Part shown: positions 3,941-37,191 of the stretch, piece after piece
Layout of the letters: each line of letters opens with the position of its first letter
How positions within the stretch are numbered: the first letter of the stretch is position 1
IMG/VR virus record: IMGVR_UViG_3300034374_007534
Location: 1-60,382 of that record
DNA: 60,382 bases
Source: a virus
Reading direction: 5' to 3' (one strand)
The notes under the pieces: generated by a model
What the model saw: only the letters and a program-made list of their open reading frames with translations
Told to the model about the DNA's origin: nothing
Database searches by the model: none
Program-made: the position numbers and the translations under genes

Positions 3941-4632
3941 CAGATCTATCTAAACAAATTAGAGAGGGAACTAAAAAGTCCCATACTATGGCAGAGAACA
4001 CAGGATTTATTACCTGCTTTTTAAAAGGGGTTGTTGAAAAAAAATCTTATATTAGACTTCTCTCAGATTTATATTTTATATACTCTGCAATGGAAGAGGA
4101 GTTTGAGAATCATAAAAGTGATACCATTTTGCGTAACATTTATTATCCTGAATTGTTCCGCAAAAAGTCTTTAGAAAAAGACTTGCAATATTATCTTGGT
4201 ATTGATTGGAGAGATTTAATTACACAAACAAAGTCTTGTAAAGAATATGTTGCAAGAATTAAAGAAGTCTCTAAGTCTAATCAGGATCTTTTAATTGCAC
4301 ATCATTACACTAGGTATATTGGAGATTTGTCTGGAGGACAACTCTTAAAAAGTATTGCTCAAACTGCATTGAAGGTTGATGATGCAGGAATGAACTTTTA
4401 TCTTTTTACTGACATTCCAGACGAGAAAGAATTTAAAACTAATTATAGAAATGTGTTAGATGAATTGCCCTTTGACCAACATGAAATTGATGATATAATT
4501 GAAGAGGCAAATTATGCATTCAAATTAAATATGAATGTGTTTAATGAAATTGAAGGTAATTTGATTTCTGCCATAGGTAAAGTTTTATTTTCTACATTAA
4601 CACGTCGTACAAGGAGAGGAAGTACCGAATGA
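3937..4632 (+). CDS. ho1: Heme oxygenase
   Basis: The protein has 231 residues, the normal size for a cyanobacterial/cyanophage heme oxygenase. The proximal heme ligand is H16 in GTKKSHTMAE, and the distal-helix motif GDLSGGQLLK lies at 129-138 after AHHYTRYI. It opens heme to biliverdin IXalpha, using electrons from ferredoxin (a phage petF is at 48253). Biliverdin is the substrate of the PcyA-type reductase at 45917. It starts in an ATGA overlap with the GT25 gene, so it is read from the same message, and it is coupled to cpeT by another ATGA. Heme oxygenase genes are known in several marine T4-like cyanophages. Confidence 0.95.
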   Translation: MTDLSKQIREGTKKSHTMAENTGFITCFLKGVVEKKSYIRLLSDLYFIYSAMEEEFENHKSDTILRNIYYPELFRKKSLEKDLQYYLGIDWRDLITQTKSCKEYVARIKEVSKSNQDLLIAHHYTRYIGDLSGGQLLKSIAQTALKVDDAGMNFYLFTDIPDEKEFKTNYRNVLDELPFDQHEIDDIIEEANYAFKLNMNVFNEIEGNLISAIGKVLFSTLTRRTRRGSTE

Positions 4633-7242: not shown

Positions 7243-7872
7243 ATGGCAATTTCAATCCAACAAAAGGTTGACTACCTTTTAAAAAAGTTAGGTTATTCCT
7301 CATCAAAGACAGGAATTGCTGAAGATTCTAGTATTTCAGGAACAAAGAAGGCACCATTTGCTGAGGCACTTCCATCACCTTTAATCATATCAAATAATGG
7401 ATTGTGGTTTGAGTCTGGATTAATACCAGTTACTCCTCCAACAACAGACTTAATTATCATTCCTGACGATTGGAGATATCCATCATACAAATTGATAGAA
7501 GTTTATGGGCAGACAAATGCATTTAGAATGACAGAAGATAATACGGTTGGTGGTAGAAGAAGTTTTATTGCAAGATCTGTATATGGTGATAATAGTTCTA
7601 TCAATGTTATTAATTGGATAGACACACAATACGGACCAGATTATATCGTAGAGGTTTATGCTGGAGACCCAAATGCTGGGGGCATTAAACTTTCTGCAGG
7701 TGGTAGTGGAAGTAATGATGAATGGTTCTTTGACTATTCTTCTGGTGTTTTAAATTTCTCAGGTGATAATGTTCCTGGATTAATATCTGGTGGGTCTGAT
7801 GTTTACATAAAAGGATGGAGATATGTTGGTGGTATCGGAGCGTTAACAGATTTTGATGGTGGAAGCTACTGA
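7243..7872 (+). CDS. Virion structural protein, paralogue of the giant fibre N-terminus
   Basis: The protein has 209 residues. Its first 60 residues (QQKVDYLLKKLGYSSSKTGI, then AEDSSISGTKKAPFAEALPSPL) closely match the N-terminus of the 4724-residue collagen-like protein at 22391. The similarity continues through the FGPDYIVEVYAGDP-type segment and the SNDEWFFDYSSGVLNFSGD segment. It ends in ALTDFDGGSY, a tail shared in part with the protein at 8247 (RIDFDGGEY). It lies directly behind the fibre gene at 5206 just as 22391 follows 20259, so the two gene pairs arose by duplication. It is likely a short fibre or adaptor subunit. Confidence 0.7.
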   Translation: MAISIQQKVDYLLKKLGYSSSKTGIAEDSSISGTKKAPFAEALPSPLIISNNGLWFESGLIPVTPPTTDLIIIPDDWRYPSYKLIEVYGQTNAFRMTEDNTVGGRRSFIARSVYGDNSSINVINWIDTQYGPDYIVEVYAGDPNAGGIKLSAGGSGSNDEWFFDYSSGVLNFSGDNVPGLISGGSDVYIKGWRYVGGIGALTDFDGGSY

Positions 7873-8815: not shown

Positions 8816-9328
8816 ATGGCAAAATATTTAAGCCCAACTCAGAGGGAATTGACTATCGGTATAGAAGATTATACCGATAATGAAACAGTTTTGACAGTTA
8901 TTGGTAATGCTAATATTACAGGAGACCTCTTAATTGATGGTGGTAGATTCCTAGTAGATTCTGAGACCTTTACACTTAGAGACCCTCTGATTGAGCTTGG
9001 TCTTGTAGATGATCCCGAAACTGGTGAGTTAGTTCCACCATCTCAAGATTTAGGTAATGATGTTGGTGTTGTTCTGAACTACTTTGATACTGCTACCAAT
9101 GCATCAGAGAAAGCAGTAATGTATTATGATAATGATGATGACAGAATGAAGTTCGTTCAGCGTGCGGAGCTAGACGGCAACAGTGTTATTCCTGAAGCAT
9201 ACGCTGCTATTGAAGCAGGTGCTCTTTGGATTAATGACTGTGCTGGAAAGTCTCAAGTTATTGATTGTGTAAATGAAGAGAGACTGCTAACAAATATCAC
9301 ACTAGATTGTGGCGTATATGGCGCTTGA
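8816..9328 (+). CDS. Virion structural protein with the shared fibre N-terminus
   Basis: The protein has 170 residues. The first 40 residues (MAKYLSPTQRELTIGIEDYT, then DNETVLTVIGNANITG) share the N-terminal module of the proteins at 5206 and 20259. The middle part (DPLIELGLVDDP, DVGVVLNYFDTATNASEKAV) resembles a fibre beta-strand domain typical of T4-like cyanophages. The C-terminus contains two cysteines (INDCAGKSQVIDCVNEE) and ends LDCGVYGA. It is probably a short fibre or collar subunit that docks at the same place as the larger fibres. It has its own late-promoter candidate and is followed by a perfect one for the giant protein downstream. Confidence 0.7.
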   Translation: MAKYLSPTQRELTIGIEDYTDNETVLTVIGNANITGDLLIDGGRFLVDSETFTLRDPLIELGLVDDPETGELVPPSQDLGNDVGVVLNYFDTATNASEKAVMYYDNDDDRMKFVQRAELDGNSVIPEAYAAIEAGALWINDCAGKSQVIDCVNEERLLTNITLDCGVYGA

Positions 9329-20258: not shown

Positions 20259-22370
20259 ATGTCAAAATTTTTAAGCGAACGCAAGAAAAATCTTAGAATA
20301 GGTATAGCTTCTTATACCGACGACTCAACAGTACTTGAAGTAACTGGACGGGTCGGAATTGGCACAACCTATGCATCAGCGGAGTTATCTGTACAAGGAG
20401 ATGCGACAATATCTGGGGTCCTAACCGCCTCAGATATTGTTGTATCTAATGATCTTGAAGTAGTTGGAGTAGTTACTGCAACCGAATATTATGGTGATGG
20501 ATCAAAATTAAAAAATCTAATTACCGATAAATTATCAGATCCTCAAGGAACTGCACCACAATTTATTGGATTTGTAACTGCAACAACAGGCGTTGTTACA
20601 TCATTTGCTTCTAATGAAGATTTTGTATTCGTTCCTCAAACAAAGAGTGTTGGTATTGGTTTAACCAATCCAGATGCAGATAAGAAATTAACCGTAGATG
20701 GTGATGTTAGAGTTACTGGATTTGTAACTGCATCGGAATTTTTTGGTGATCAAGTTATTGGAACCCCATCTGCTGGTTTCTTACCTGGAGCAGTTGGAAT
20801 TGAGACTGGAGATTATACCAAAGACTCTGTGAATGAAATTAATTTTATTCTAGGGAAATTGGTTCCAAAACCACCAGCAACTATTTTAAATGAACCATTC
20901 TCTTTGACTGGGTTGACTGGTGTTGGAAGATTGTGTTCAGGATTTAATCCTACTAACAATACTGATGGTGATTTGACGCCATCAGCAGGTACACAATATA
21001 GTAGAAATACTGATAATACCGTTACTTCAAATTATATTACAGAATATGGTCCAGGAGATGCTGGAACAGTTACTGGATTTGTAAATGCTGTTGGAGTTGG
21101 TACTACAGATTTATCCATTGGATCTAATGATGGCATCTATGGTTCCTTGCAAATTGCAAACAATAAAGATGCATTCTTCTCATCAAGAAATCCAGGGATT
21201 AACTCTGAATTTTATGAAGTTTATGATGCCAGATTGATTAATGCTCCATGTCCTGATGGATTTAATAAAGCATTCATTCAACAGTTTGCATATACTACCC
21301 AGCAGGCATATTGGTATGAGGATGGAAGTACAGTCACTGCACCTGTTTTAAGTGTTACTACTCCAGTAACACCACCTTCACCAACTTTGAATTATTCTTC
21401 TGGTGTACCACATTACACACAAGATTCTAGCAATGCATTTACTTATGTAATAACTTGTGAGAATGCTACGGGTGATATGTACACTCAGAATACCTTTCTG
21501 ACATCTAGTGGTCAAACTACTGGATTTCAAAATGGTGGAAGTAAAAGTTATACTAATTTTGATGGAGGTGTTAATCCACCAGTTCAGAATTATGGTGTAG
21601 GTACTGGCGTAACATGTTTAGTTTCTCAAACACCTAGAGATCTTCATCAAACAGTTAATACTGATGCTACTAGATTCTCTACCTACACTGCAACAACTCC
21701 TTATGGGTCAGATACAGTAAGAGCAACTATAACTCCTGCAGTCAATATGATGGGAACAACTGCAAGGACTAATATTATTGATGAAGATAACATTGCAGTT
21801 AATAGTTTAGGAACTGGTTCTGGAAATGCTGTTAGAGTGAACGCTGGATCTAGTGCAGATAATCCCACACCAGTTTACACATCATTTAGTGCTTCTACTA
21901 CTGCAGCAGCATATGAATCTATTGTTAGAGGAGGTGCTTTGAGGCATGATCAAACAGATTATTCTAGTGGATCTTGGTTACCAGTAGGACCAGATTATTC
22001 TTCTGGTAGAACTGGAGCACAATATTTCCAATTGCAATTTATAAGATCTCAGGTATCTGAATTTAGAATAGCAGTTAGTGGATCGTATGCAGGATGTTGG
22101 GTATGTATGCCCGACAATTCTACATGGACTTCATCTTTATCTGGTACTAATGGTTGGGCAGACATGTTCCAAGCATATAGAGGTGCTGGTGTACCAACAT
22201 CAGCAGAACCAGGATGTTCTTCGGGTGGTGCAATGAATGGTTCTGGCGGAACATTTACATGTGTATTTGGTACAGAATCTTCATCTAATGACTCAAACAA
22301 TCGCATTTTGATTCGTTGGAGATTGAACTCTGGGCAGTCAATTACTGCCATGTCATTCACGTCTACATAA
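20259..22370 (+). CDS. Virion fibre-like structural protein (copy 2 of a duplicated pair)
   Basis: The protein has 703 residues and is a paralogue of the 672-residue protein at 5206. It has the same N-terminal anchor (MSKFLSERKKNLRIGIASYT, then DDSTVLEVTGRVGI). Extra short beta repeats follow in residues 40-170 (GVLTASDIVVSNDLEVVGVV, and GFVTASEFFGD), of the type seen in other fibres of this phage family. The long shared domain starts at FLPGAVGIETGDYTK and ILGKLVPKPPATILNEP and ends at SGTNGWADMFQAYRG. The sequence between the anchor and the shared domain is where the two copies differ most, a likely place for length change. It is probably a fibre or fibre-base subunit. The giant collagen-like protein follows after 20 bases. 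Confidence 0.75.
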   Translation: MSKFLSERKKNLRIGIASYTDDSTVLEVTGRVGIGTTYASAELSVQGDATISGVLTASDIVVSNDLEVVGVVTATEYYGDGSKLKNLITDKLSDPQGTAPQFIGFVTATTGVVTSFASNEDFVFVPQTKSVGIGLTNPDADKKLTVDGDVRVTGFVTASEFFGDQVIGTPSAGFLPGAVGIETGDYTKDSVNEINFILGKLVPKPPATILNEPFSLTGLTGVGRLCSGFNPTNNTDGDLTPSAGTQYSRNTDNTVTSNYITEYGPGDAGTVTGFVNAVGVGTTDLSIGSNDGIYGSLQIANNKDAFFSSRNPGINSEFYEVYDARLINAPCPDGFNKAFIQQFAYTTQQAYWYEDGSTVTAPVLSVTTPVTPPSPTLNYSSGVPHYTQDSSNAFTYVITCENATGDMYTQNTFLTSSGQTTGFQNGGSKSYTNFDGGVNPPVQNYGVGTGVTCLVSQTPRDLHQTVNTDATRFSTYTATTPYGSDTVRATITPAVNMMGTTARTNIIDEDNIAVNSLGTGSGNAVRVNAGSSADNPTPVYTSFSASTTAAAYESIVRGGALRHDQTDYSSGSWLPVGPDYSSGRTGAQYFQLQFIRSQVSEFRIAVSGSYAGCWVCMPDNSTWTSSLSGTNGWADMFQAYRGAGVPTSAEPGCSSGGAMNGSGGTFTCVFGTESSSNDSNNRILIRWRLNSGQSITAMSFTST

Positions 22371-22390: not shown

Positions 22391-25300
22391 GTGGCAGCAT
22401 CTCAAGAACAAAAGCTAGATTTTCTATTAAAGAAGATAGGTTATACCGCATCCAAAACTGGTATAGCTGAGGACTCTACTTTATCAGGCACCAAAAAAGC
22501 ACCATTTGCGGAAGCTATTCCTTCGCCACTGGTAATTCGTTCTGATCTTATTTGGTCAGAGAGTGGAGATATTCCAGGAACTCCACCTTCAGCAACTAGT
22601 TCTATTGTACAGGTATATGGAACAGCAAGTGCTTTAAGATTAACGGCAGACCCCACTGTTAGTGGTAATAGAGCATTTTTATGTAGAGCAACGTATAATA
22701 ATAACAGTTCAACACTTCTGGGTGATTGGATTGATCCTAGCTTTGGTCCAGATTACATTGTTAAAGTTTATAGAGGTGATCCTGCTTCTGGTGGTGTGCA
22801 GCTATCTGCAGCTGGTGCTGGATCAAATGATACTTGGTTCTTTGATTATGCTGCAGGTGTACTTAACTTCAATGGAACTGTAGTCCCTTCTGGAGTAAAC
22901 TCTGGAAATGTTTACCTTGTTGCTTATAGGTACAAGGGACCAAAGGGTGTTGTTACCCAAGGATCATCTCCATCTTTTGATAATATTATTTCTGGTATTC
23001 TAACTGCAGATGCATTCTATACTGGATTTGATACAAATAGTTCATTAGCACTTACTGGTGATAAAATTTTAGGTCCAGCATCAATTAGTATTGTACCATT
23101 CCAAGATGGTGTTGTATTCATTGAGGGTGACCTTCAAATCAAAGGAACTCCGATTGGATTTAGTAGTAGTCAAATTACATTCTTCGATAATGATGTTGTT
23201 CTTGGAACAGATTCTATTATCTTTAATGCTAATGAGACATTAGAATCTAATCTTGACGGATCTGTTATTGGTATTGGTTCTACATCAGTAAGAAAATCAA
23301 TAAAATACAAATTCAGTATTGATGCTTGGCAATCTAGTGTGAACTTTGGTGTTCATGAACCAGATGGAGCATACTATGTTGCTGAAAATGAAGTATTAAA
23401 TGCAACTACGCTTGGATTAGGAATTACAAATTCAAATCTTAGATCTGCAAATCCTGGATTTATTAATGATAGGGTACAAACTCAGGCACAACCAGAGGAT
23501 TTTATTCTCTTCTATGATCAGACTGATGGTTTATTAAAGAAAGATACAATTTTGAGTGCTGCTTTACAAGGTGCTCAAGGTCTGCAAGGTCTTCAGGGTC
23601 TTCAAGGTAACCAGGGCAACCAAGGTAATCAGGGTAATCAAGGTCTTCAAGGCAACCAAGGTCTACAAGGTTTACAGGGTTTACAAGGTCTTCAGGGTCT
23701 TCAAGGCAATCAAGGTCTGCAAGGTCTTCAGGGCAACCAAGGTCTTCAGGGTGTTGCTGGTCCAGTAGAAGGTGATCCATATCAGGTAATCTTCAAAAAT
23801 GCATCTAATCTCCCACAAGGTTCTGATGATCTAAGATTTGATGCCAACAGTAATCTTTATGTTGCTGGTATTGTTACTGGTACATCATTTAAGACTGGAG
23901 CACTTGGACAAGCAATTATTGTAAATAGTGATTCTATCACTGGTCCATCAACAATTACCCTTGACCCAGCAGGTGTTGGTGATAACACAGGTATTGTTAG
24001 AATTAAAGGCAACCTAGTTGTTGATGGTGAAACAATCACAATTAGTACTGGTACTCTGGATATTCCAGACTTCAAGATTGGAATTGCAAAATCGGTAGGA
24101 GATAATGCTCTCCTAGATGGTGCTGGTATTGGTATCGGTTCAACATCAATTAGAAAAGATATTGTTTGGCAATCTGGAACAGCATCTATTTACATTACAG
24201 AAAATGTAAACGTTCCAAGTGGAAAAGTTTATAAAATTAATGGAAATACTGTATTAGAAGAAACAACTCTTGGTACAGGAGTTACAAATTCTTATCTTAC
24301 TAATGTATCTCCAAATCTTATATTCCAAAAACCACAATTAACTGGAGATATTCAACAGTCAGATCTACTTCTTTTATATGATATTAGTGATTCTAGCTTA
24401 AAGAAAGCAACGATTACTGACGTATCTATTCAAGGTGTCCAAGGAACACAAGGTCGTCAAGGTAATCAGGGCAATCAAGGTAACCAGGGCAACCAGGGTA
24501 ACCAAGGTAACCAAGGTAACCAAGGAAATCAGGGCAACCAAGGTTTACAAGGTCTACAAGGTAATCAGGGTAACCAGGGCAACCAAGGTAATCAGGGCAA
24601 TCAGGGCAATCAAGGTAACCAGGGACTTCAAGGTGTAGGTTCTCAAGGTGTACAGGGTCTACAAGGTTTACAGGGTCTACAAGGTAACCAGGGATTACAG
24701 GGTGTAGGTGCTCAAGGTCTCCAGGGTAACCAAGGTCGTCAAGGCAACCAAGGTAACCAGGGTCTCCAAGGTAACCAAGGTAACCAAGGACTTCAAGGTC
24801 TTCAGGGTGGTATTGGTGATAGAGGAGGTATTCGTTATGAATGGGTTCAGAGTACAACAGATCAAGATCCTGGAAATGGTAATGTTGCATATAACAACTC
24901 GGCAATAAACTCAGTTACTCAAATTTATATTGATAACTTAGATGATCTTGGTAATAATCAGACTGCTTGGTATGATGTTTGGGATGATACTGAGAATCCA
25001 GATAGAGGATACTTATACTTTATCTCTGCGGATATTTTATCTGGAACTACAGTAAACATTTTTAGAATTAATGGTGTTAATCAAGTTGCATCTGGATACT
25101 ATAAAATTTCAGTAGAGTATGTAACTGGTACATTACCTTCTAATGGTGACATTTTAACACTGTTCCATAGTAGAACTGGTATTCAAGGTTTACAAGGAAA
25201 CCAGGGCAACCAAGGTAATCAAGGTAATCAAGGCAACCAAGGTAATCAAGGCAACCAGGGTCTCCAAGGTCTCCAAGGTCTTCAAGGTAACCAAGGCAAC

Positions 25301-28300
25301 CAAGGTAATCAGGGTAACCAGGGTAACCAGGGCAATCAAGGTAATCAGGGTAACCAAGGTAACCAGGGTATGCTTGGAGACCGTGGTGGTATTCGTTATG
25401 ACTTTGATTCTACTACCACAGCAGGTACGGGTGGACAAGGATCATTAAGGTATAACAATGCTACCGCAGCAAATATTACAGAATTATATTTTGATGATAC
25501 AGATTCTTTTGGATCTGATCAAACTGGTTGGTACGATACATTTGACGATACTCAGTTAAATGCTGGACTAAATCGTGGATACCTCTATGTAACCTCGGCA
25601 GATTCTGGTGGTAATGTAACTTCTATATTCTATGTTGATGATGCTGTAATAGATAACACTACTTATTGGACTGTTCCTGTAACTTATGTAAGTGGTGATA
25701 TTCCTTCAAATGGTCAAGAAGTAACGGTACTATTCACTAAGAGTGGAACTCAGGGTGTCCAAGGTAACCAGGGCAACCAAGGCAACCAAGGTAATCAGGG
25801 TAACCAAGGTAACCAAGGTAACCAGGGACTTCAAGGCAACCAAGGTAATCAGGGTAACCAAGGTAATCAAGGTAACCAAGGTAATCAGGGCAACCAGGGT
25901 AATCAAGGTTTACAAGGTCTCCAAGGTCTCCAAGGTCTACAGGGTAATCAAGGCAACCAAGGTAACCAGGGCAACCAGGGTAATCAAGGCAACCAAGGAA
26001 ACCAGGGTAATCAAGGTTTACAAGGTAACCAGGGTATGCTTGGAGACCGTGGTGGTATTCCTTATAGATTTAATACTGCTACTGGATCTGGATCTTCAGG
26101 TGATGGAGATTTTAGATTTAATAATAGTACCATTGGTAGTGTAACTCAAATATATGTTGATGATAATGATATCTTTGGAGTAGATCACTCTGCTTGGGTT
26201 GCAAATTGGGATGATACTCAAGTTATTGCTGGAGAAGGTAGGGGATACATTTATATTACCTCAGCAGATTCTGCAACTAATGTTAGTGCAATATTTGAAG
26301 TAACTGGGGCAATAACAGACCAAACTGATTATCAGGAAATACCTGTTACTTATTTGAGTGGTAATATTCCTTCTAATGCACAAGATATAACCATCTTCTT
26401 TACAAAGACAGGTATTCAAGGTCTACAAGGTAACCAGGGTAACCAGGGTAATCAAGGCAACCAAGGAAACCAGGGTAACCAGGGTAACCAGGGCAACCAA
26501 GGATTACAGGGTCTCCAAGGTCTCCAAGGTCTTCAAGGTAACCAAGGCAACCAGGGTAACCAAGGTAATCAAGGATTGCAGGGTAACCAAGGTAACCAGG
26601 GCAACCAAGGTAATCAAGGTAACCAGGGTAATCAAGGTAATCAGGGACTTCAAGGAAACCAAGGTCTGCAGGGTATGCTTGGAGACCGTGGTGGTATTCC
26701 TTATGAGTTTGATACTACTACCGCAGCAGGTTCTGGTGGTCAAGGGGTATTAAGATTTGATAGTCCAGCTATTGCAAACGCAACTACACTTTATTTTGAT
26801 GATACAGATCTATTTGGAATAGATCAAACCGCTTGGTATGATACTTGGGACGATACTCAAGTTAATGTTGGAGAGAATCGTGGATACATTTATATTACTA
26901 CCTCAGATTCTTCTACAAACACAAGTATTATCTTTGAAGTAGATGGTTCTGTATCTGATAATGGTTCTTATTATAGTATTCCAGTAAACTATTTAACTGG
27001 ATCTCTTCCTTCTAATGGACAAGAATTAACAGTATTCTTCACTAAAACAGGTACACAAGGTTTACAAGGTAACCAAGGTCTTAGTGGTAGAAATGCTGAA
27101 ACTACTTATGTTTATACATTCAGTTCTTCAACAGGTGCAGCAAATCCTGGATCTGGAAGATTAAGATTTGATAATTTCTCAACTCAGTCTAGTGCAACTG
27201 AGTTGTACATTGCCAACACTGATAGTGGTGGAACTGATCTGTCAGACTTCCTTGCAGATATTGAGAACTATGGAATTCTAGAGAGACAAGCTCTTGTTAA
27301 GATTGTAGATCCTGTTGATGCATCCCAATATCATTTGTTTGTTGTTGGTAATACTCAATTACAAACTGGTGGTGCTACTGGATGGTTCTCATTTGACATT
27401 ACCCAATTCTATGCATCTTCTGGAAACTTCTCTAATAACGATACAGTATTCATTAGCTTCTCGTTTATAGGACCTCAAGGTGTTCAAGGTAACCAAGGTC
27501 TCCAAGGACTCCAAGGTAACCAAGGTAATCAAGGTAACCAGGGCAACCAAGGTCTCCAAGGTAACCAGGGTAATCAAGGTAACCAGGGTAATCAAGGTAA
27601 TCAAGGAAACCAGGGCAACCAAGGTCTCCAAGGTCTCCAAGGTCTGCAAGGTCTCCAGGGTAACCAAGGTAACCAGGGTAACCAAGGTAATCAAGGATTG
27701 CAGGGTAACCAAGGTAACCAGGGCAACCAAGGTAATCAAGGTAACCAGGGTAACCAAGGTAATCAAGGATTGCAGGGTAACCAAGGTAACCAGGGCAACC
27801 AAGGTAATCAAGGTAACCAGGGTAATCAAGGCAATCAAGGTCTACAGGGTAACTACGGCAACCGTGGTGGGGTTCCTTATATCTTCTCTACAACTACACA
27901 GAATGGAGATCCTGGTAATGGTAATTTTAGATATAATAATGCAACCATTGGTTCTGTAACCGAAATTTATATTGATAACTTAGATGACCTAGGTAATGAT
28001 CAGACCGCTTGGTATGATGTTTGGGATGATACTCAACTAAATGCAGGTTTAAGTCGTGGTAATCTTGTAATAACATCTGCAGATAGTGCAGATACTAATG
28101 TAAATATCTTTAATGTTGTAGGAGCAGTTACAGCAGAGACTGGTTATTACAGAGTTCCTGTTGCATATGTATCTGGATCTTTACCAACCAACTCTGAAAA
28201 GTTAGTATTTAACTTTACAAGATCTGGTGTCCAAGGTGTTCAAGGTTTACAAGGTCTTCAAGGTCCAGATGGTGTAAGTTCTGGAGATACTTTTGAATAC

Positions 28301-31300
28301 TTCTATTCAACAAGCACTACAGCCGCAGATCCTGGACAAGGATTTATAAGATTTGATAATAGTACAATTGAGAATAGTACAGAAATATACCTTGATCATA
28401 GAGATGAAAATGGATCAGATTTAAGTGACTTCTATTCATTCGTTGATCAATATGGATCTCCTGGAAATAAGGGATTTGTTAAGATTCAGTCTCAAACAAA
28501 TGCAAATAACTTCTATATTTTTAGACTTGGTGGAGTTATTTTAGAGTCTGCTGGTGCTAATGGATGGAGTACATTAGATTTAACTTCAAATGTTAGTGCT
28601 GGTACTGGATTCTCTAATAATGAAGCAATATTCTTAAGTTTTGGTCTTGCTGGTATTCAAGGTACTCAAGGTAACCAAGGTAATCAGGGACTCCAAGGTA
28701 ATCAAGGTAACCAAGGTAACCAGGGTAATCAAGGTAATCAGGGTAATCAAGGTAACCAGGGCAATCAAGGCAACCAGGGACTTCAGGGCAATCAAGGTAA
28801 CCAGGGTAACCAAGGTAATCAAGGTAACCAGGGTAACCAAGGTCTCCAAGGCAATCAAGGTAACCAGGGTAACCAAGGTAATCAAGGTAACCAGGGTAAC
28901 CAAGGTCTCCAAGGCAATCAAGGTAACCAAGGTAATCAAGGTAACCAGGGTAATCAGGGTAACCAAGGTATGCTTGGAGACCGTGGTGGCATTCCTTACT
29001 TATTTGACACAACTACTACCGCAGGATCTGGTGGTCAAGGAAGAATTAGATTCAATAGTGGAACAATTGGTAGTGTAACTGAACTTTATTTTGATGATAC
29101 AGATTCATTTGCTGTTGATCAAACTGGTTGGTATGATACTTGGGATGATACTCAAGTCAATTCTGGTTCAAATCGCGGATATGTATATATTACGTCTGCA
29201 GATAGTTCCAGTAATACTACAGCAATCTTCTATGTAGATGATGTTGTTACTGATAATGGTACTTATTATACCATCCCTGTTACTTTTGTAAGTGGAAATC
29301 TACCTACAAACAATCAAGAACTTACAGTCTTCTTTACAAAGACAGGTATTCAGGGTCTCCAAGGTAATCAGGGTAACCAAGGCAATCAAGGTAATCAAGG
29401 TAACCAAGGTAATCAAGGACTCCAAGGTAATCAAGGTAACCAGGGCAACCAGGGTAATCAGGGTAACCAGGGACTCCAAGGTAATCAGGGTAATCAGGGT
29501 AACCAGGGACTCCAAGGTAATCAGGGTAACCAAGGCAACCAAGGTAATCAGGGTAACCAAGGCAACCAAGGTAATCAAGGATTGCAAGGTCTCCAAGGTC
29601 TACAAGGTCTCCAAGGTCTACAAGGTAACCAAGGTAATCAGGGTAACCAAGGTCTCCAAGGCAATCAAGGTAACCAAGGTAACCAGGGTAACCAAGGAAA
29701 TCAAGGTCTCCAAGGCAATCAAGGAAACCAAGGTAATCAAGGTAACCAGGGTAACCAGGGTAACCAAGGAAATCAAGGTCTCCAAGGCAATCAAGGAAAC
29801 CAAGGTAATCAAGGTAACCAGGGCAACCAGGGTAATCAGGGTATGCTTGGAGACCGTGGTGGTGTTCCTTACTTATTTGACACAACTATTACAGCGGGAT
29901 CTGGTGGTCAAGGAAGACTTAGATTTAATAATGGAACAATTGCCAATGTTACAAACATGTATTTTGATGACACTGATGAATTCGGTGTTGATCAGACTGG
30001 TTGGTATGACACTTGGGACGATACGGTAGTTAATGCGGGACTCAATAGAGGATATATTTACATTACTTCCGCAGACTCTGCAACTAATGTTACTGCGGTA
30101 TTCTATGTAAACAATACTGTTGAGAACAATACTTCATATTATAGAGTACCAGTTACTTATCTAAGTGGTAATCTCCCCACAAATGGTCAAGCAGTAACGG
30201 TATTCTTTACAAAGACAGGTGTTCAGGGTGTTCAAGGTAACCAGGGTAATCAAGGTAATCAAGGTAACCAGGGCAACCAGGGTAATCAGGGTAACCAAGG
30301 TAATCAGGGACTTCAAGGCAACCAGGGTAATCAAGGTAATCAAGGTAACCAGGGCAACCAGGGTAATCAGGGCAACCAGGGTAATCAGGGTAATCAAGGT
30401 CTACAAGGATTGCAAGGATTACAAGGATTGCAAGGCAACCAAGGTAATCAAGGTAATCAAGGTAACCAAGGTCTCCAAGGCAATCAAGGTAACCAGGGCA
30501 ACCAAGGCAACCAAGGTAACCAGGGTAATCAAGGTAATCAGGGACTTCAAGGCAATCAAGGACTTCAAGGCAATCAAGGTAACCAAGGAAATCAAGGTAA
30601 CCAAGGTAATCAAGGTCTTCAAGGTAATCAAGGCAACCAGGGTAATCAAGGCAACCAAGGTAATCAGGGTAACCAAGGTAATCAGGGTAACCAGGGTAAC
30701 CAGGGTATGCTTGGAGACCGTGGTGGTGTTAGGTATTCCTTTGATACTACTACAACTGCAGGAACAGGTGGACAAGGTGTTATTAGATTCAATGATTCCA
30801 ATATTGCAAACGTAAGCACTCTTTATTTTGATGATACAGATTCATTTGGTGTTGATCAAACTGGTTGGTACGATACTTTTGATGATACAATAGTAAATAA
30901 TGGACTTAATAGAGGTTACATTTATATTAGTAGTGCTGATAGTACATCAAATGTAACAGCAGTATTCTTTGTTGATGGTCCAGTAGTTAATAATGGAACA
31001 TACTACAGCGTACCTGTAAATAACCTTACTGGTTCTTTACCATCAAATGGGCAAGATTTGAGTGTTGTCTTTACTAAGAGTGGACAGCAAGGTGTTCAAG
31101 GCAATCAAGGACTCCAAGGCAATCAAGGTCGTCAAGGTAACCAGGGTAACCAGGGCAATCAAGGTAATCAGGGTCTTCAGGGTAATACTGGTAGTCGTGG
31201 AGGAAATCCATATATCTTCTCTACAACCACTACTAATGCAGATCCTGGAAATGGTGTCGTAAGATATAACAATAGCAATATTGCATCTGTTACTGAATTT

Positions 31301-34300
31301 TATATTGATAACTTAGATGATCTAGGTAACAATCAGACGGCATGGTATAACACATGGGATGATACTGTAACAAATACTGGATTGGTTAGAGGTTATTTGT
31401 ATATAACTTCTTCTGACTCCAACCAAACTACAGTAAATGCTTTTGCAGTTAGTGGAGATGTTATTGCTCAAACTGGATATTATAGAATACCTGTTACCTA
31501 CATTTCTGGTACTTTACCAGGAAATAATGAACAGTTATCAATTAACTTTACTCCTGCAGGTGCTCAAGGTCTCCAAGGTAATCAAGGTCTTCAAGGAAAC
31601 CAGGGTATTAAAGGTAGAGATTCTGAAAATAGTTACAATTATTTCTATAATAATTCAACCACTGCAAGTGATCCTGGAAGTGGTAATTTAAGATTTAATA
31701 ATGCAAATATTGCTAGTGCAACAGCAGTTTATATTGATAATACAAACAGTGATAATGTAAATCTTGACACATTCCTACAAACAATTACTGAATATGGATC
31801 GGTAAACAAGAGAGGATTCATCAGAATTGGTCTTGCTAATGATTTAACAGCATACAATGTATATGAAATTACAGGAGTTACTCAAAATGCTTCTGGTGCT
31901 GGTGGATGGCACACTATTTCAATTACTAATGTTATATCAACAACCACAACTATCAGTAATAATACTGAACTAATTGTAAGTATTTCTGTTGCTGGACCTC
32001 AAGGTACTCAAGGTAACCAGGGTAACCAGGGTAATCAGGGTAACCAGGGTCTACAAGGTAACCAAGGACGCCAAGGCAACCAGGGCAACCAAGGTAATCA
32101 AGGTAACCAAGGTAATCAAGGTAACCAAGGAAATCAAGGACTCCAAGGCAACCAAGGCAACCAAGGTAATCAGGGTAATCAAGGCAACCAGGGTAACCAG
32201 GGATTGCAAGGTAACCAAGGTAACCAAGGAAATCAAGGTAATCAGGGTAACCAAGGTATGCTTGGAGACCGTGGTGGCATCCCTTACCTATTCGATACTA
32301 ACACTGCTGCTGGATCTGGTGGTCAAGGAAGACTTAGATTCAACTCTGGTACTATTGGTAGTGTCACAAACATGTATTTTGATGACACTGATGAGTTTGG
32401 AGTAAATCAAACTGGTTGGTACAATACTTGGGATGATACAGTAGTTAATGCTGGTTTAAATCGTGGTTATATCTATATTACATCGGCAGACAGTTCAACA
32501 AATGTTACCGCAGTATTCTATGTAAACAATACTGTTGAGAACAATACTTCATATTATAGAGTACCAGTCACATACTTGAGTGGTAATTTACCATCAAATG
32601 GTCAAGAAGTAACAGTCTTCTTTACAAAAACTGGCGTACAGGGACTTCAAGGTAACCAGGGTAATCAAGGCAACCAAGGTAATCAAGGACTCCAAGGTAA
32701 TCAAGGTAACCAAGGTAATCAGGGCAACCAAGGTAATCAAGGTAATCAGGGTAACCAGGGTAACCAGGGTAACCAAGGATTGCAGGGTAACCAAGGCAAC
32801 CAAGGTAATCAGGGTAATCAGGGTAATCAAGGCAACCAAGGTAATCAAGGACTCCAAGGTAATCAAGGTAACCAAGGTAATCAGGGCAACCAAGGTAATC
32901 AAGGTAATCAGGGTAACCAAGGTAATCAAGGTCTACAAGGTTTACAGGGTATCGCTGCTGCAAGATCTCTCGGATCTACATTTGAATACACTACTTCTAC
33001 TGCAAACTCTGATCCAGGAACAGGACATCTTGGATTTAATGCCGCTGTAACTGCAAACTTCACAACATTCAGAATTAGTGAAACTGATATTAACTTGAGT
33101 GATGTTGAAGGTATTCTTGCTTCTCTAGATTATTCTGATAACATTCCTAGATCTATTGTTACTGTTCAAAGAGAAGTTAATAACTTAGATTATGTTATCT
33201 TCTCCATTGAAAGTGCTAGAACAGATAATGGTGGATGGAGAAGTTATTCATGTACAAAGATTGCACAGACTGGAACATTCTCTGATGGTGATAAGGTCTT
33301 TGCTGTTATCCAACCAGTTGGTAACCAGGGTGTTCAAGGTCTCCAGGGTAACATTGGTAACCGTGGTGGAGTTCCTTATGACTTCCAAGGATCTGGTGGA
33401 GGAGCTCCTGGATCAGGTACAGTTACATATAATAGTGGAACATTCTCCAGTATTACTGAACTTAGAATCAATGATATTGATGCTTTAAGTAATGACCAGT
33501 CAAACTGGATTGCAAGTTGGGATGATACAGCATTAACTGGTGGATTGAACAGAGGTTATATCTACCTTATCTCTGCAAACTCCGCACAAAATACTGTCAA
33601 TATTTTTGAAGTTGATGGTAGTGCAACAAATAATGGATCATATTACACTATTCCAGTCAATCCTATTAGTGGTTCTGTTCCCTCAAACGGAACAGAACTT
33701 ACCATAGCATTTACAAGATCTGGTGTCCAGGGTGTTCAAGGTAATCAAGGCAACCAAGGTAACCAAGGACTGCAAGGTAACCAGGGCAACCAAGGAAACC
33801 AGGGTAACCAGGGTAACCAGGGTAATCAGGGTAACCAAGGTAATCAAGGATTGCAGGGTAACCAAGGTAACCAGGGTAACCAGGGTAATCAGGGTAACCA
33901 AGGTAATCAAGGATTGCAGGGTAACCAAGGTAACTACGGTAACCGTGGTGGAGTTCCTTATAACTTCTCTACAACCACTACTAACGCAGATCCTGGAAAT
34001 GGAAATGTAAGATATAACAATGCAACAATGAGCTCAGTGAGCTTCATTTATATTGATAACTTAGATGTTCTTGGCAACAATCAAACTGGGTGGTACAACA
34101 CTTGGGATGATACTACATTAAACACTGGTCTTACTAGAGGTAATCTTGTAATAACATCTGCGGATAGTGCAGATAATAATGTAAATGTATTCAATGTCAC
34201 GGGTGCAGTTCAAGTTGCTTCTGGTTTCTATAGAATCCCAGTATCATATGTGTCTGGATCTAGACCTGCAAATACTGAGAAGTTAGTATTTAACTTCAAT

Positions 34301-36565
34301 AGAGCAGGTACTCAGGGACTCCAAGGTAACCAAGGCAACCAAGGTAATCAGGGTAACCAAGGTAATCAGGGTAATCAAGGTAATCAGGGACTCCAAGGTA
34401 ACCAAGGCAACCAGGGTAACCAAGGCAACCAGGGTAACCAAGGCAACCAAGGAAACCAAGGTCTCCAGGGTAACCAGGGTAACCAAGGCAATCAAGGTAA
34501 TCAGGGACTTCAGGGCAACCAGGGTAATCAAGGTAATCAAGGTAACCAGGGTAATCAGGGTAACCAAGGTAATATCGGTAACCGTGGTGGAGTTCCTTAT
34601 CGTTGGGGAGGAACAGGAGTTCCTTCATCTGGACAAGTAAGATATAACAACGGAACCTTTGCTAGCATCACTGCAATTCAAGTTCATGATATTGATCAAT
34701 TAAGTAATGATCAATCAAACTGGATTGCAAGTTGGGATGATACAACATTAACTGGAGGATTGAACAGAGGTTATATTTACATAATCTCAGCCCTATCTTC
34801 ACAAACCACAGTAAACATTTTTGAAGTTGATGGAAATATTTCAAATAATGGTTCTTATTATACCATTCCAGTTAATCCGCTCAGTGGGACAAATCCTTCC
34901 GTAAACCAAGAAATTACTTTAGCATTCACAAGATCTGGTGTTCAGGGTCTCCAAGGTAACCAAGGTAATCAAGGTAACCAAGGTAATCAAGGTAACCAGG
35001 GTAATCAGGGTAACCAAGGTAATCAAGGTAATCAGGGACTCCAAGGTAACCAAGGACGCCAAGGTAACCAAGGTAATCAAGGTAATCAGGGTAACCAAGG
35101 TAATCAAGGTAATCAAGGACGCCAAGGAAACCAGGGTCTTCAGGGTAACCAAGGACGCCAAGGTAACCAAGGTAATCAGGGTAATCAGGGTAACCAAGGT
35201 AACCAGGGCAACATTGGTAACCGTGGTGGAGTTCCTTATGCATATGGAGGAACTGGAGCACCATCTTCTGGTCAAATTAGATTCAATAATGCAACAGCAT
35301 CTTCTGTAACTTCTATTACAGTTAATGATATTGATGCTTTAAGCAATAATCAATCGGGATGGATCGCAAGTTGGGATGATACAACACTAACTGGAGGATT
35401 GAATAGAGGTTATATTTACATAATCTCAGCTCTATCTTCAGATAATACTGTTGTTATTTTTGAAGTTGATGGAAATATAACTGATAATGGTACTTATTAT
35501 ACCATCCCAGTCAATTATCTTGCAGGTACTTCACCATCAGTAAGTGAAGAAGTAACGCTAGCATTTACAAGATCTGGTGTTCAGGGTGTACAAGGAAGAC
35601 AAGGTACACAAGGTAATCAAGGTCGTCAAGGTAATCAGGGTCTCCAAGGAAACCAAGGTCGTCAGGGTCGTCAAGGTAACCAAGGTAATCAAGGTAACCA
35701 AGGACGCCAAGGTAACCAAGGTCTTCAGGGTAATCAAGGTCGCCAAGGACGCCAAGGTAACCAGGGTCTCCAAGGAAACCAAGGACGCCAAGGTACGCAA
35801 GGTTTAAGTAACCAAGGTACACAAGGTAACCAAGGACGCCAAGGTAACCAGGGTAACCAAGGACGCCAAGGTACGCAAGGTTTAAGTAACCAAGGTACAC
35901 AAGGTAACCAAGGACGCCAAGGTAACCAAGGACGCCAAGGTAACCAGGGTCTCCAAGGAAACCAAGGACGCCAAGGACGCCAGGGAACTCAAGGTCTTCA
36001 GGGACGCCAAGGTACACAAGGACGCCAAGGTACGCAAGGTTTAAGTAACCAAGGTACACAAGGTAATCAAGGTACACAGGCAACCCAAGGTACTCAAGGT
36101 CTCCAAGGAAACCAAGGACGCCAAGGACGCCAGGGAACTCAAGGTCTTCAAGGACGCCAAGGTACACAAGGACTCCAAGGTAATCAAGGAACCCAAGCAA
36201 CTCAAGGCACTCAGGGTTCTGCAAATACAACAACAATTTCAAATAATGTAGACAATAGAGTCATAACTGCTACTGGTTCTGCTGGAACAGTTAATGCAGA
36301 AGCAAATCTTACCTTTACTGGAAGTGTTCTAACAATTGCTGGAAATATTGTTCCAAATACAAATAATACAAGAGATCTTGGTTCAACCACTCTTCGCTGG
36401 GCAAACATTTATACAAATGATATTAATCTTAGTAATGAGGGTTCTACAAATGATGTTGATGGAACATGGGGTGAATATACAATTCAAGAAGGAGAGAATG
36501 ATTTGTTCCTAATTAATAGAAGAAATGGTAAAAAGTTTAAGTTCATGTTATCGGAGGTAGACTGA
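22391..36565 (+). CDS. Giant collagen-like fibre protein (4724 residues)
   Basis: The uninterrupted 14.2-kb frame starts with GTG, behind a GGGGAAG Shine-Dalgarno-like stretch. Residues 1-390 are a virion-anchoring region paralogous to the protein at 7243. Then come a first Gly-x-Gln block (about 393-457), a second globular domain (about 457-680), and blocks of Gly-Asn-Gln/Gly-Leu-Gln triplets. The blocks alternate with 18 globular modules of about 110 residues, most starting GDRGG(I/V)PY or GNRGGVPY and ending LPSNGQELTVFFTKTG. The last block (about 4395-4610) switches to Gly-Arg-Gln and Gly-Thr-Gln with GLSNQ breaks. The C-terminus (RDLGSTTLRWANIYTNDINL) is a fibre-end motif. Gly at every third residue for hundreds of triplets indicates a collagen-type trimer or a polyglycine-II-type fold; proline is nearly absent. 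Predicted role: a very long tail fibre. Confidence 0.85.
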   Translation: MAASQEQKLDFLLKKIGYTASKTGIAEDSTLSGTKKAPFAEAIPSPLVIRSDLIWSESGDIPGTPPSATSSIVQVYGTASALRLTADPTVSGNRAFLCRATYNNNSSTLLGDWIDPSFGPDYIVKVYRGDPASGGVQLSAAGAGSNDTWFFDYAAGVLNFNGTVVPSGVNSGNVYLVAYRYKGPKGVVTQGSSPSFDNIISGILTADAFYTGFDTNSSLALTGDKILGPASISIVPFQDGVVFIEGDLQIKGTPIGFSSSQITFFDNDVVLGTDSIIFNANETLESNLDGSVIGIGSTSVRKSIKYKFSIDAWQSSVNFGVHEPDGAYYVAENEVLNATTLGLGITNSNLRSANPGFINDRVQTQAQPEDFILFYDQTDGLLKKDTILSAALQGAQGLQGLQGLQGNQGNQGNQGNQGLQGNQGLQGLQGLQGLQGLQGNQGLQGLQGNQGLQGVAGPVEGDPYQVIFKNASNLPQGSDDLRFDANSNLYVAGIVTGTSFKTGALGQAIIVNSDSITGPSTITLDPAGVGDNTGIVRIKGNLVVDGETITISTGTLDIPDFKIGIAKSVGDNALLDGAGIGIGSTSIRKDIVWQSGTASIYITENVNVPSGKVYKINGNTVLEETTLGTGVTNSYLTNVSPNLIFQKPQLTGDIQQSDLLLLYDISDSSLKKATITDVSIQGVQGTQGRQGNQGNQGNQGNQGNQGNQGNQGNQGNQGLQGLQGNQGNQGNQGNQGNQGNQGNQGLQGVGSQGVQGLQGLQGLQGNQGLQGVGAQGLQGNQGRQGNQGNQGLQGNQGNQGLQGLQGGIGDRGGIRYEWVQSTTDQDPGNGNVAYNNSAINSVTQIYIDNLDDLGNNQTAWYDVWDDTENPDRGYLYFISADILSGTTVNIFRINGVNQVASGYYKISVEYVTGTLPSNGDILTLFHSRTGIQGLQGNQGNQGNQGNQGNQGNQGNQGLQGLQGLQGNQGNQGNQGNQGNQGNQGNQGNQGNQGMLGDRGGIRYDFDSTTTAGTGGQGSLRYNNATAANITELYFDDTDSFGSDQTGWYDTFDDTQLNAGLNRGYLYVTSADSGGNVTSIFYVDDAVIDNTTYWTVPVTYVSGDIPSNGQEVTVLFTKSGTQGVQGNQGNQGNQGNQGNQGNQGNQGLQGNQGNQGNQGNQGNQGNQGNQGNQGLQGLQGLQGLQGNQGNQGNQGNQGNQGNQGNQGNQGLQGNQGMLGDRGGIPYRFNTATGSGSSGDGDFRFNNSTIGSVTQIYVDDNDIFGVDHSAWVANWDDTQVIAGEGRGYIYITSADSATNVSAIFEVTGAITDQTDYQEIPVTYLSGNIPSNAQDITIFFTKTGIQGLQGNQGNQGNQGNQGNQGNQGNQGNQGLQGLQGLQGLQGNQGNQGNQGNQGLQGNQGNQGNQGNQGNQGNQGNQGLQGNQGLQGMLGDRGGIPYEFDTTTAAGSGGQGVLRFDSPAIANATTLYFDDTDLFGIDQTAWYDTWDDTQVNVGENRGYIYITTSDSSTNTSIIFEVDGSVSDNGSYYSIPVNYLTGSLPSNGQELTVFFTKTGTQGLQGNQGLSGRNAETTYVYTFSSSTGAANPGSGRLRFDNFSTQSSATELYIANTDSGGTDLSDFLADIENYGILERQALVKIVDPVDASQYHLFVVGNTQLQTGGATGWFSFDITQFYASSGNFSNNDTVFISFSFIGPQGVQGNQGLQGLQGNQGNQGNQGNQGLQGNQGNQGNQGNQGNQGNQGNQGLQGLQGLQGLQGNQGNQGNQGNQGLQGNQGNQGNQGNQGNQGNQGNQGLQGNQGNQGNQGNQGNQGNQGNQGLQGNYGNRGGVPYIFSTTTQNGDPGNGNFRYNNATIGSVTEIYIDNLDDLGNDQTAWYDVWDDTQLNAGLSRGNLVITSADSADTNVNIFNVVGAVTAETGYYRVPVAYVSGSLPTNSEKLVFNFTRSGVQGVQGLQGLQGPDGVSSGDTFEYFYSTSTTAADPGQGFIRFDNSTIENSTEIYLDHRDENGSDLSDFYSFVDQYGSPGNKGFVKIQSQTNANNFYIFRLGGVILESAGANGWSTLDLTSNVSAGTGFSNNEAIFLSFGLAGIQGTQGNQGNQGLQGNQGNQGNQGNQGNQGNQGNQGNQGNQGLQGNQGNQGNQGNQGNQGNQGLQGNQGNQGNQGNQGNQGNQGLQGNQGNQGNQGNQGNQGNQGMLGDRGGIPYLFDTTTTAGSGGQGRIRFNSGTIGSVTELYFDDTDSFAVDQTGWYDTWDDTQVNSGSNRGYVYITSADSSSNTTAIFYVDDVVTDNGTYYTIPVTFVSGNLPTNNQELTVFFTKTGIQGLQGNQGNQGNQGNQGNQGNQGLQGNQGNQGNQGNQGNQGLQGNQGNQGNQGLQGNQGNQGNQGNQGNQGNQGNQGLQGLQGLQGLQGLQGNQGNQGNQGLQGNQGNQGNQGNQGNQGLQGNQGNQGNQGNQGNQGNQGNQGLQGNQGNQGNQGNQGNQGNQGMLGDRGGVPYLFDTTITAGSGGQGRLRFNNGTIANVTNMYFDDTDEFGVDQTGWYDTWDDTVVNAGLNRGYIYITSADSATNVTAVFYVNNTVENNTSYYRVPVTYLSGNLPTNGQAVTVFFTKTGVQGVQGNQGNQGNQGNQGNQGNQGNQGNQGLQGNQGNQGNQGNQGNQGNQGNQGNQGNQGLQGLQGLQGLQGNQGNQGNQGNQGLQGNQGNQGNQGNQGNQGNQGNQGLQGNQGLQGNQGNQGNQGNQGNQGLQGNQGNQGNQGNQGNQGNQGNQGNQGNQGMLGDRGGVRYSFDTTTTAGTGGQGVIRFNDSNIANVSTLYFDDTDSFGVDQTGWYDTFDDTIVNNGLNRGYIYISSADSTSNVTAVFFVDGPVVNNGTYYSVPVNNLTGSLPSNGQDLSVVFTKSGQQGVQGNQGLQGNQGRQGNQGNQGNQGNQGLQGNTGSRGGNPYIFSTTTTNADPGNGVVRYNNSNIASVTEFYIDNLDDLGNNQTAWYNTWDDTVTNTGLVRGYLYITSSDSNQTTVNAFAVSGDVIAQTGYYRIPVTYISGTLPGNNEQLSINFTPAGAQGLQGNQGLQGNQGIKGRDSENSYNYFYNNSTTASDPGSGNLRFNNANIASATAVYIDNTNSDNVNLDTFLQTITEYGSVNKRGFIRIGLANDLTAYNVYEITGVTQNASGAGGWHTISITNVISTTTTISNNTELIVSISVAGPQGTQGNQGNQGNQGNQGLQGNQGRQGNQGNQGNQGNQGNQGNQGNQGLQGNQGNQGNQGNQGNQGNQGLQGNQGNQGNQGNQGNQGMLGDRGGIPYLFDTNTAAGSGGQGRLRFNSGTIGSVTNMYFDDTDEFGVNQTGWYNTWDDTVVNAGLNRGYIYITSADSSTNVTAVFYVNNTVENNTSYYRVPVTYLSGNLPSNGQEVTVFFTKTGVQGLQGNQGNQGNQGNQGLQGNQGNQGNQGNQGNQGNQGNQGNQGNQGLQGNQGNQGNQGNQGNQGNQGNQGLQGNQGNQGNQGNQGNQGNQGNQGNQGLQGLQGIAAARSLGSTFEYTTSTANSDPGTGHLGFNAAVTANFTTFRISETDINLSDVEGILASLDYSDNIPRSIVTVQREVNNLDYVIFSIESARTDNGGWRSYSCTKIAQTGTFSDGDKVFAVIQPVGNQGVQGLQGNIGNRGGVPYDFQGSGGGAPGSGTVTYNSGTFSSITELRINDIDALSNDQSNWIASWDDTALTGGLNRGYIYLISANSAQNTVNIFEVDGSATNNGSYYTIPVNPISGSVPSNGTELTIAFTRSGVQGVQGNQGNQGNQGLQGNQGNQGNQGNQGNQGNQGNQGNQGLQGNQGNQGNQGNQGNQGNQGLQGNQGNYGNRGGVPYNFSTTTTNADPGNGNVRYNNATMSSVSFIYIDNLDVLGNNQTGWYNTWDDTTLNTGLTRGNLVITSADSADNNVNVFNVTGAVQVASGFYRIPVSYVSGSRPANTEKLVFNFNRAGTQGLQGNQGNQGNQGNQGNQGNQGNQGLQGNQGNQGNQGNQGNQGNQGNQGLQGNQGNQGNQGNQGLQGNQGNQGNQGNQGNQGNQGNIGNRGGVPYRWGGTGVPSSGQVRYNNGTFASITAIQVHDIDQLSNDQSNWIASWDDTTLTGGLNRGYIYIISALSSQTTVNIFEVDGNISNNGSYYTIPVNPLSGTNPSVNQEITLAFTRSGVQGLQGNQGNQGNQGNQGNQGNQGNQGNQGNQGLQGNQGRQGNQGNQGNQGNQGNQGNQGRQGNQGLQGNQGRQGNQGNQGNQGNQGNQGNIGNRGGVPYAYGGTGAPSSGQIRFNNATASSVTSITVNDIDALSNNQSGWIASWDDTTLTGGLNRGYIYIISALSSDNTVVIFEVDGNITDNGTYYTIPVNYLAGTSPSVSEEVTLAFTRSGVQGVQGRQGTQGNQGRQGNQGLQGNQGRQGRQGNQGNQGNQGRQGNQGLQGNQGRQGRQGNQGLQGNQGRQGTQGLSNQGTQGNQGRQGNQGNQGRQGTQGLSNQGTQGNQGRQGNQGRQGNQGLQGNQGRQGRQGTQGLQGRQGTQGRQGTQGLSNQGTQGNQGTQATQGTQGLQGNQGRQGRQGTQGLQGRQGTQGLQGNQGTQATQGTQGSANTTTISNNVDNRVITATGSAGTVNAEANLTFTGSVLTIAGNIVPNTNNTRDLGSTTLRWANIYTNDINLSNEGSTNDVDGTWGEYTIQEGENDLFLINRRNGKKFKFMLSEVD
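23568..36225 (+). repeat. Gly-x-Gln triplet arrays (9-bp periodicity)
   Basis: Arrays of GG(T/C)-AA(T/C)-CA(A/G) and GG(T/A)-CT(C/T/A)-CA(A/G) alternate with the globular modules. By subtracting the modules I estimate about 600 triplets. Codons alternate among synonyms, so the protein repeat is near perfect while the DNA repeat is not. Blocks lie at about 23568-23760, 24433-24810, 25180-25370, 25750-26035, 26410-26675, 27475-27850, 28655-28970, 29345-29845, 30220-30705, 31085-31180, 31995-32260, 32635-32950, 33730-33930, 34310-34570, 34940-35210 and 35580-36225, plus short ones. Confidence 0.9.
24811..35575 (+). repeat. Eighteen about 110-residue globular modules
   Basis: Module starts lie near 24811, 25375, 26040, 26680, 27085, 27860, 28265, 28975, 29845, 30710, 31190, 31610, 32265, 32950, 33355, 33940, 34570 and 35215. 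Most share a core of G(x)GxxR(F/Y)N(N/S), TELYFDDTD, DQT(G/A)WYDTWDDT, NRGYIYITSADS, YYxIPVTYxSG and (L/I)PSNGQELTVFFTK. Four diverged ones lack the RGG entry (27085 ETTYVY, 28265 GDTFEYFYS, 31610 NSYNYFY, 32950 GSTFEY) and may form a second class. Confidence 0.8.
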
Positions 36566-37191
36566 TGCCTATTTTAGCGGCGGACATAACAGGTGAAAAT
36601 TTAAATCTAACAGGAGTAATGACATGCACCAGCATGGATACTGGTGCAGGACCAGGAGGATCAGTTCCTAGTGGAGGTATTATTTTATGGTCTGGTTCAA
36701 CAGCATCGATACCTACTGGATGGGTTTTATGTGATGGTCTTAATAGTACACCAGATCTTAGGGACAGGTTTGTTGTTGGTGCAGGTAATGGATATGCTGT
36801 AGCTGCTACTGGTGGTTCTGATACTGTAACACTAACAACAGCACAACTACCTGTACATAATCATCCAGGATCTGGTTCTAGTGGATCTGCTGGATCTCAC
36901 TCTCACCCAGCAAGTGGGTCTACAGGACCTGCAGGTACTCACTCTCACGCATACACAGGAACTGCCTCACAAAATGCTCCAAAAGATGGTGCTGGTAATG
37001 CAGTTAACCAAGGCACTCAAGCTAGAACTACTTCACCTGCAGGTGCTCATACTCATCCAGTAAGTGTATCAGTTAATTCTGCAGGTTCTCATAGTCATCC
37101 AGTGTCTGTTAGTGTTGGAAATGCTGGTAGTGGCAATGCTCATGAGAATAGACCTCCTTATTATGCACTAGCATACATCATGAAAACCTAA
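36565..37191 (+). CDS. Tail-collar / fibre-tip protein with HxH motifs
   Basis: The protein has 208 residues. Residues about 33-75 (VPSGGIILWSGSTASIPTGW, then VLCDGLNSTPDLRDRFVVGAG) are the phage tail-collar domain found in T4 gp12-like and other fibre tips. The C-terminal half is Gly/Ser-rich with five HxH motifs (HNH, HSH, HSH, HTH, HSH) and ends ENRPPYYALAYIMKT, the usual collar-protein end. In T4 gp37 and similar tips, HxH repeats bind iron ions along a narrow needle; the same arrangement is likely here. The start overlaps the stop of the giant collagen-like gene by one base (TGATG), which suggests the two products are made together and that this may be its tip. Confidence 0.8.
   Translation: MPILAADITGENLNLTGVMTCTSMDTGAGPGGSVPSGGIILWSGSTASIPTGWVLCDGLNSTPDLRDRFVVGAGNGYAVAATGGSDTVTLTTAQLPVHNHPGSGSSGSAGSHSHPASGSTGPAGTHSHAYTGTASQNAPKDGAGNAVNQGTQARTTSPAGAHTHPVSVSVNSAGSHSHPVSVSVGNAGSGNAHENRPPYYALAYIMKT

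Follow-up and report, generated by a model that had tools for sequence, protein, structure and literature searches.

The window, that is, the whole stretch of viral DNA analysed here (60,382 nucleotides, 60.4 kb; IMG/VR record IMGVR_UViG_3300034374_007534), matches T4-like cyanophages in its right part (psbA, zwf, gnd and hli regions; S-SM2, S-WAM2 and others). One unbroken frame with a GTG start runs on the + strand from 22391 to 36565, exactly where a preliminary description of the same DNA had placed it, and encodes a protein of 4724 residues with a predicted chain mass of 493 kDa. The hub, docking and collar genes described below lie on the same strand. The protein begins with a docking domain (aa 1–187; 22391..22951), defined by an alignment of 19 sequences and assigned to PHROG_9417 (E=3.4e-45). 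It is followed by the first copy of a stem domain of the cyanophage virion-structural-protein type (aa 188–393; 22952..23569), with a weak match to PHROG_6002. The shaft (23570..36196), recognized by Pfam Collagen, is built of 20 Gly-X-Gln blocks and 19 interrupting non-collagen domains, and the chain ends in a C-terminal tip (aa 4646–4724; 36326..36562) that belongs to PHROG_892, tail fiber (E=3.6e-20). The collagen is thus flanked by phage-type families, and the anchor and fibre-end motif previously noted at the two termini both turn out to be real conserved families.

Counting runs of at least four triplets, the protein contains 25 Gly-X-Y runs that cover 1813 residues (599 triplets) and merge into 20 blocks (1833 residues), whose lengths range from 5 to 69 triplets. 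Such runs cover at most 67 residues in any of 200 residue shuffles. The hundreds of Gly-X-Gln triplets of the preliminary description are therefore real, with Gln at the Y position in 560 of the 599 (93%), which makes it dominant but does not place it there throughout, as had been claimed. At the X position, Asn (389) and Leu (116) account for most triplets, and R, T, L and V are tolerated there. Proline is as scarce as had been stated, with four residues among the 1813, and glutamate is absent from them. Pfam Collagen (PF01391) matches 33 stretches (E=1.3e-240, 777.9 bits against a gathering cut-off of 27.2), and the only other match in the Pfam scan is a sub-threshold one to Glutenin. At the DNA level, exact repeats within the gene reach 101 bp at most, and at least 12 codon combinations encode GNQ. 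Collagen of the GNQ type is not unique to this gene: 92 viral DNA stretches hold six consecutive GNQ codons. Blocks of 240–257 triplets, far exceeding any single block of the present fibre, occur in other viral contigs (IMGVR_UViG_3300044641_007277, or L106, and L065/L018).

Eighteen of the interrupting domains are homologous modules of 116–125 residues (about 119; hereafter beads), which lie between aa 807 and 4395 (24809..35575) and confirm the 18 similar modules seen earlier. The nineteenth, overlooked in that reading, is a different domain of 222 residues (aa 460–681; 23768..24433), which separates blocks 1 and 2, is unrelated to the beads and has its relatives among virion and baseplate structural proteins of cyanophages. 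The bead alignment contains no stretch conserved enough for a degenerate scan. AlphaFold2 models the bead as a single chain with pLDDT 90.1 and pTM 0.84. Foldseek finds no match to this fold in the PDB at E≤1e-3, and 42 in BFVD at the same threshold; most are named “Collagen triple helix repeat”, and they span Caudovirales, cyanophages and giant viruses. The bead fold is an already catalogued viral family without assigned function. Among cultured phages, a sequence search at E≤1e-5 detects it only in Pelagibacter phage HTVC010P, as two modules in tandem, and in Actinomycetia phage DSL-LC01, where it is 46–49% identical and a collagen block comes directly after it. As it recurs alongside collagen, the bead, modelled here as a monomer, suggests a domain for trimeric folding and registration.

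Another repetitive protein of the tail-fibre type is encoded elsewhere in the window (9382–19473). Its 3363 residues contain at least 10 copies of a repeat of about 125 residues, the first ~40 of which resemble phycocyanin alpha around residues 80–120. The whole protein scores above the cut-off for Pfam Phycobilisome (1.9e-8) and below that for NCBIfam phycocyanin-alpha (4.1e-11), and its PDB profile match reaches only E=0.03. The likeness may reflect chance, mimicry or true homology.

The partner gene of the docking domain (20259..22370; 703 aa, PHROG_8578), which we call the hub, ends 20 nt ahead of the fibre gene. This hub–docking pair occurs twice in the window, the other copy comprising a 672-aa hub paralogue (5206..7224; 58% identical) and a 209-aa protein consisting of the docking domain only (7243..7872; 53% identical to that of the fibre). 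In the alignment, docking domains are 34–80% identical to the window copy, and homologues are found in phiCbK-like Caulobacter phages, Brevundimonas phages and the jumbo phages SCTP-2, Atu_ph07 and Phosso. Hub homologues are present in the same genomes and, where the available sequence covers both genes, the hub comes directly 5′ of the docking gene, at a spacing of about 20 nt. In CcrColossus and CcrSC, a hub, a docking–hub fusion and a docking protein are encoded by consecutive genes, and Atu_ph07 has a comparable docking–hub fusion; a serial chain, with each docking domain seated on the preceding hub, would be the simplest reading. Both PHROG_8578 and PHROG_9417 are catalogued families without assigned function. 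Profile searches against PDB sequences gave no significant match for the docking domain, the hub or the bead, and Foldseek with the hub model returned only immunoglobulin-like matches (query TM ≤0.15), which we do not interpret because the model is confident only at about residues 202–495. The first 34 residues of a 170-aa ORF in the window (8816–9328) are common to both hub proteins (50–59% identity), which suggests a small particle-attachment motif at the hub N-terminus. Other ORFs with the docking domain in viral contigs are mostly 570–1660 aa long and without collagen. In one such contig, a docking ORF of 1087 aa is followed by a separate collagen gene of 2224 aa, and for this reason the present gene resembles a fusion of a proximal with a distal fibre into one chain.

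At the other end of the fibre, the last 63–79 residues are 68–78% identical to the C-termini of proteins from S-WAM2, ACG-2014i, S-CAM4 and cyanopodoviruses, so that the tip is common to cyanomyovirus structural proteins and a T7-type cyanopodovirus fibre (about 70% for the S-WAM2, ACG-2014i and P-SCSP1u proteins). The P-SCSP1u protein with the matching tip starts with the T7 tail-fibre domain PF03906, which Pfam does not find in the window fibre, so the relation to the T7 type is through the C-terminus only. The C-terminus of the P-SCSP1u fibre has been described as its host-contacting part (PMC10575957). Two diverged homologues of the whole fibre retain its design: one of 4415 aa, with about 600 triplets and a docking region about 74% identical to that of the window (78% in a second contig), and one of about 3890 aa, with about 680 triplets and a docking region 59% identical. 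Both end in Peptidase_S74, an intramolecular chaperone of trimeric phage fibres, which is absent from the window fibre in the Pfam scan. The tip has thus been exchanged on a conserved body, as would be expected of a host-range cartridge. The gene downstream (36565..37191), whose first base is also the final one of the fibre stop codon, encodes a 208-aa tail-collar/tail-fibre protein (PHROG tail fiber, E=3.2e-31; Pfam Collar below cut-off) that might act as a tip partner. Genes of the S8 subtilase type adjoin large fibre genes in S-WAM2 (L172 7191–8849, Pfam-confirmed) and, by annotation, in Atu_ph07 (L075 4455–8210) and Phosso (L076 5301–9164); fibre processing or cutting of the host surface are possible roles.

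This arrangement lends good support to a collagen-like virion fibre that has its docking domain at the N-terminus and a tip at the far end, and we regard it as probable that the gene encodes, on its own, the adsorption fibre of a T4-like cyanophage, docked via the hub and carrying a collagen shaft and a tip. Three chains would assemble into one fibre, the docking domain seating on the hub and the hub linking the fibre to the particle. Folding would proceed block by block from the docking domain, the ~600 Gly-X-Gln triplets forming a collagen-type triple helix of ~0.52 µm in total. The 18 beads would act as trimeric nodes that start each collagen block and hold its register, as a sequence free of proline and not hydroxylated would require; they may also introduce bends and, more speculatively, weak binding sites. 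The C-terminal end would be the adhesive, host-contacting tip, an exchangeable cartridge common to several cyanophage morphotypes, and a thread of half a micrometre would let a small particle reach cells far past its tail.

As to where this fibre would be anchored, the signals from gene neighbourhoods conflict between lineages. Attachment to the tail or baseplate appears the better choice, and attachment to the capsid is a reasonable, if less favoured, option. The more specific proposal of a capsid-attached filament (a head fibre or whisker) that snares distant cells, like the head filament of phiCbK, is rather unlikely, even though several genomes speak for it. In phiCbK-like phages, the hub and docking genes are flanked on one side by the major and minor capsid genes and on the other by gp76, the candidate for the head filament; in a contig of 288.8 kb (G024), the hub starts ~4.7 kb after a gp23-type capsid gene; and Atu_ph07, in which hub, docking and collagen genes stand together, has thin whiskers described as primarily capsid-associated. 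Three observations speak against it: ~75 kb separate the fibre from the capsid gene upstream of it in G012, the closest large relative; Salicola phage SCTP-2 has the pair a long way from its capsid gene and 6–10 kb ahead of genes for the baseplate wedge and tail sheath; and the tip and neighbours of the window fibre are of tail-fibre types. Head filaments of the gp76 type are large glycine-rich proteins with a lectin-like domain; Colossus gp091 has ALK_LTK_GRD and Laminin_G_3, and Pfam finds neither in the window fibre. The fullest version, a capsid-borne beaded collagen tether of half a micrometre that fishes for Synechococcus by means of a phiCbK-type hub and docking system, with the bead as a general viral domain for the in-register folding of proline-free collagen, is more doubtful still.

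The rod of half a micrometre put forward in the preliminary description stands as arithmetic, since 1813 residues at 0.286–0.29 nm give 518–526 nm for the triplets alone, and remains conditional on the triple helix; the length is therefore a prediction from sequence, and the modules would extend it by some tens of nm. The rise used is consistent with measurements on a phage collagen domain: side-tail proteins with collagen domains from E. coli prophages are trimeric and triple-helical, with 2.9 Å per residue, and a repeat domain in one of them, EPclB, is followed by another collagen block (PMC3368898). A collagen-bearing “tail fiber” gene lies just before the hub genes of Atu_ph07 (L075 11160–13289; Atu_ph07 252555–254684); a gene count that starts at gp312 (clamp loader) would make it gp327. 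All annotated tail-fibre proteins of that phage (four tail fibres) were found in the virion, according to the Atu_ph07 paper. If the triplets instead took a different form, for example a disordered linker or a bundle of the polyglycine-II kind, the thread would be thicker, shorter or flexible. The near absence of proline and the richness in Asn and Gln agree with this idea, as Gly-Asn-Gln could in principle make polyglycine-II-like bundles, but we judge it improbable in view of the strict Gly-X-Y register over ~600 triplets that accept R, T, L and V at X, the Pfam collagen scores and the triple helix measured directly in the E. coli phage domain (PMC3368898). Gln, moreover, is one of the residues that collagen tolerates better at Y. 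A triple helix is thus the preferred structure for the shaft.

In so repetitive a gene, with one length-polymorphic block and a nonsense change in one contig, an artefact of assembly or repeat expansion, or a decaying gene, has to be considered. Seven other IMG/VR contigs, each with its own metagenome accession, contain the gene; they are separate assemblies and, as they possibly come from one study, not fully independent samples. Four of the seven are identical to the window across 14,175 nt, two differ solely by an additional 63 nt (7 triplets) in block 17 (33722..33949), and one combines these 63 nt with one C-to-T substitution that creates a stop codon. This nonsense change, at nt 4630 of the fibre gene in IMGVR_UViG_3300025610_002696 (L057), is either a real variant or a consensus error. 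Block 17 contains 25 triplets in the window and 32 in those three contigs, and several more contigs terminate inside it, which fits a length polymorphism there. The broken frame or misassembly that the preliminary description had raised is not what these contigs show: the frame is unbroken in six of the seven. When the window is compared with the 74% homologue, the stem has a dN/dS of 0.26, the hub one of 0.18 and eleven orthologous non-collagen domains from end to end values of 0.03–0.27, and the frame has thus been kept by selection along its whole length. Module order is conserved between these two, same-position pairs being 71–98% identical, and modules have been both gained and lost; recent module copies (91–94% identical) occur in the 59% homologue. 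The base-for-base agreement of separate contigs, exact repeats of at most 101 bp, diverged homologues with a common design and dN/dS low throughout contradict an artefact of assembly or repeat expansion, and make an artefact or decay exceedingly improbable. No cultured relative of the exact fibre gene was found.

A protein for surface display or host modification, which glycosyltransferase-like and CpeT-like genes nearby might suggest, is hardly credible given the tail-fibre C-terminus, the virion-type docking family, the S74 ends of the homologues and the structural-gene neighbours.

Read as an adsorption fibre, the protein predicts one of the longest appendages of a virion together with a natural collagen, ~1,800 residues long and proline-free, that has its folding nodes built in and would inform how unhydroxylated collagen folds. 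The preliminary description did not include the partner gene before the anchor, the homologues of similar size, the wide distribution of the bead among viral collagens or the choice between capsid and tail attachment. The fibre ties the uncharacterised families PHROG_8578 and PHROG_9417 to fibre attachment in Caulobacter, rhizobial, halophilic and cyanobacterial phages, including some with known capsid filaments, shows the swapping of tips on a conserved giant shaft and indicates a widespread collagen-associated viral fold without a solved structure.

Every component is already known or catalogued, from phage fibres with collagen domains to the bead fold, the docking pair and the tip, and the fibre is an extreme form of a design found in many viruses. 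What is new is the combination and scale: ~600 proline-free triplets and 18 beads in a single chain that uses the docking system seen in phages with filaments. The side-tail proteins EPclA and EPclB of E. coli prophages likewise have a Gly-X-Y shaft in a phage fibre, and EPclB has two collagen blocks parted by a repeat domain, with a triple helix measured at ~2.9 Å per residue (PMC3368898). The listed members of that group are 389–645 aa long, with collagen blocks of 63–157 residues rich in Pro, Asp/Glu and Ala, whereas the window fibre has ~1820 collagen residues, Gln at Y, 18 beads and different N- and C-terminal domains. The same bead fold, with TM scores to the query of 0.63–0.89, is found in viral “Collagen triple helix repeat” proteins (Caudovirales, S-CAM7, Marseillevirus, Indivirus and Klosneuvirus; BFVD), those listed having at most ~1400 residues as held in BFVD, compared with 4724 here. 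The phiCbK-like phages, Atu_ph07, Phosso and SCTP-2 share a homologous docking domain and hub, adjacent and in the same order, but their docking ORFs (232–770 aa) are without collagen, unlike the window fibre, and in phiCbK the candidate for the long filament is a protein of its own, rich in glycine and bearing a lectin domain. The fibre or structural proteins of S-WAM2, ACG-2014i and P-SCSP1u are alike in the tip and differ in their N-termini, in length (1079–1396 aa) and in being without collagen. Very long single-chain fibres have a precedent among cyanophages in S-CREM2 gp85, the virion-confirmed long tail fibre of an estuarine cyanomyovirus. At 4971 aa in a single polypeptide, it is similar in size to the window fibre and the longer of the two, so that the latter is no size record; Gly-X-Y triplets are absent from it, and no similarity between the two fibres is detectable.
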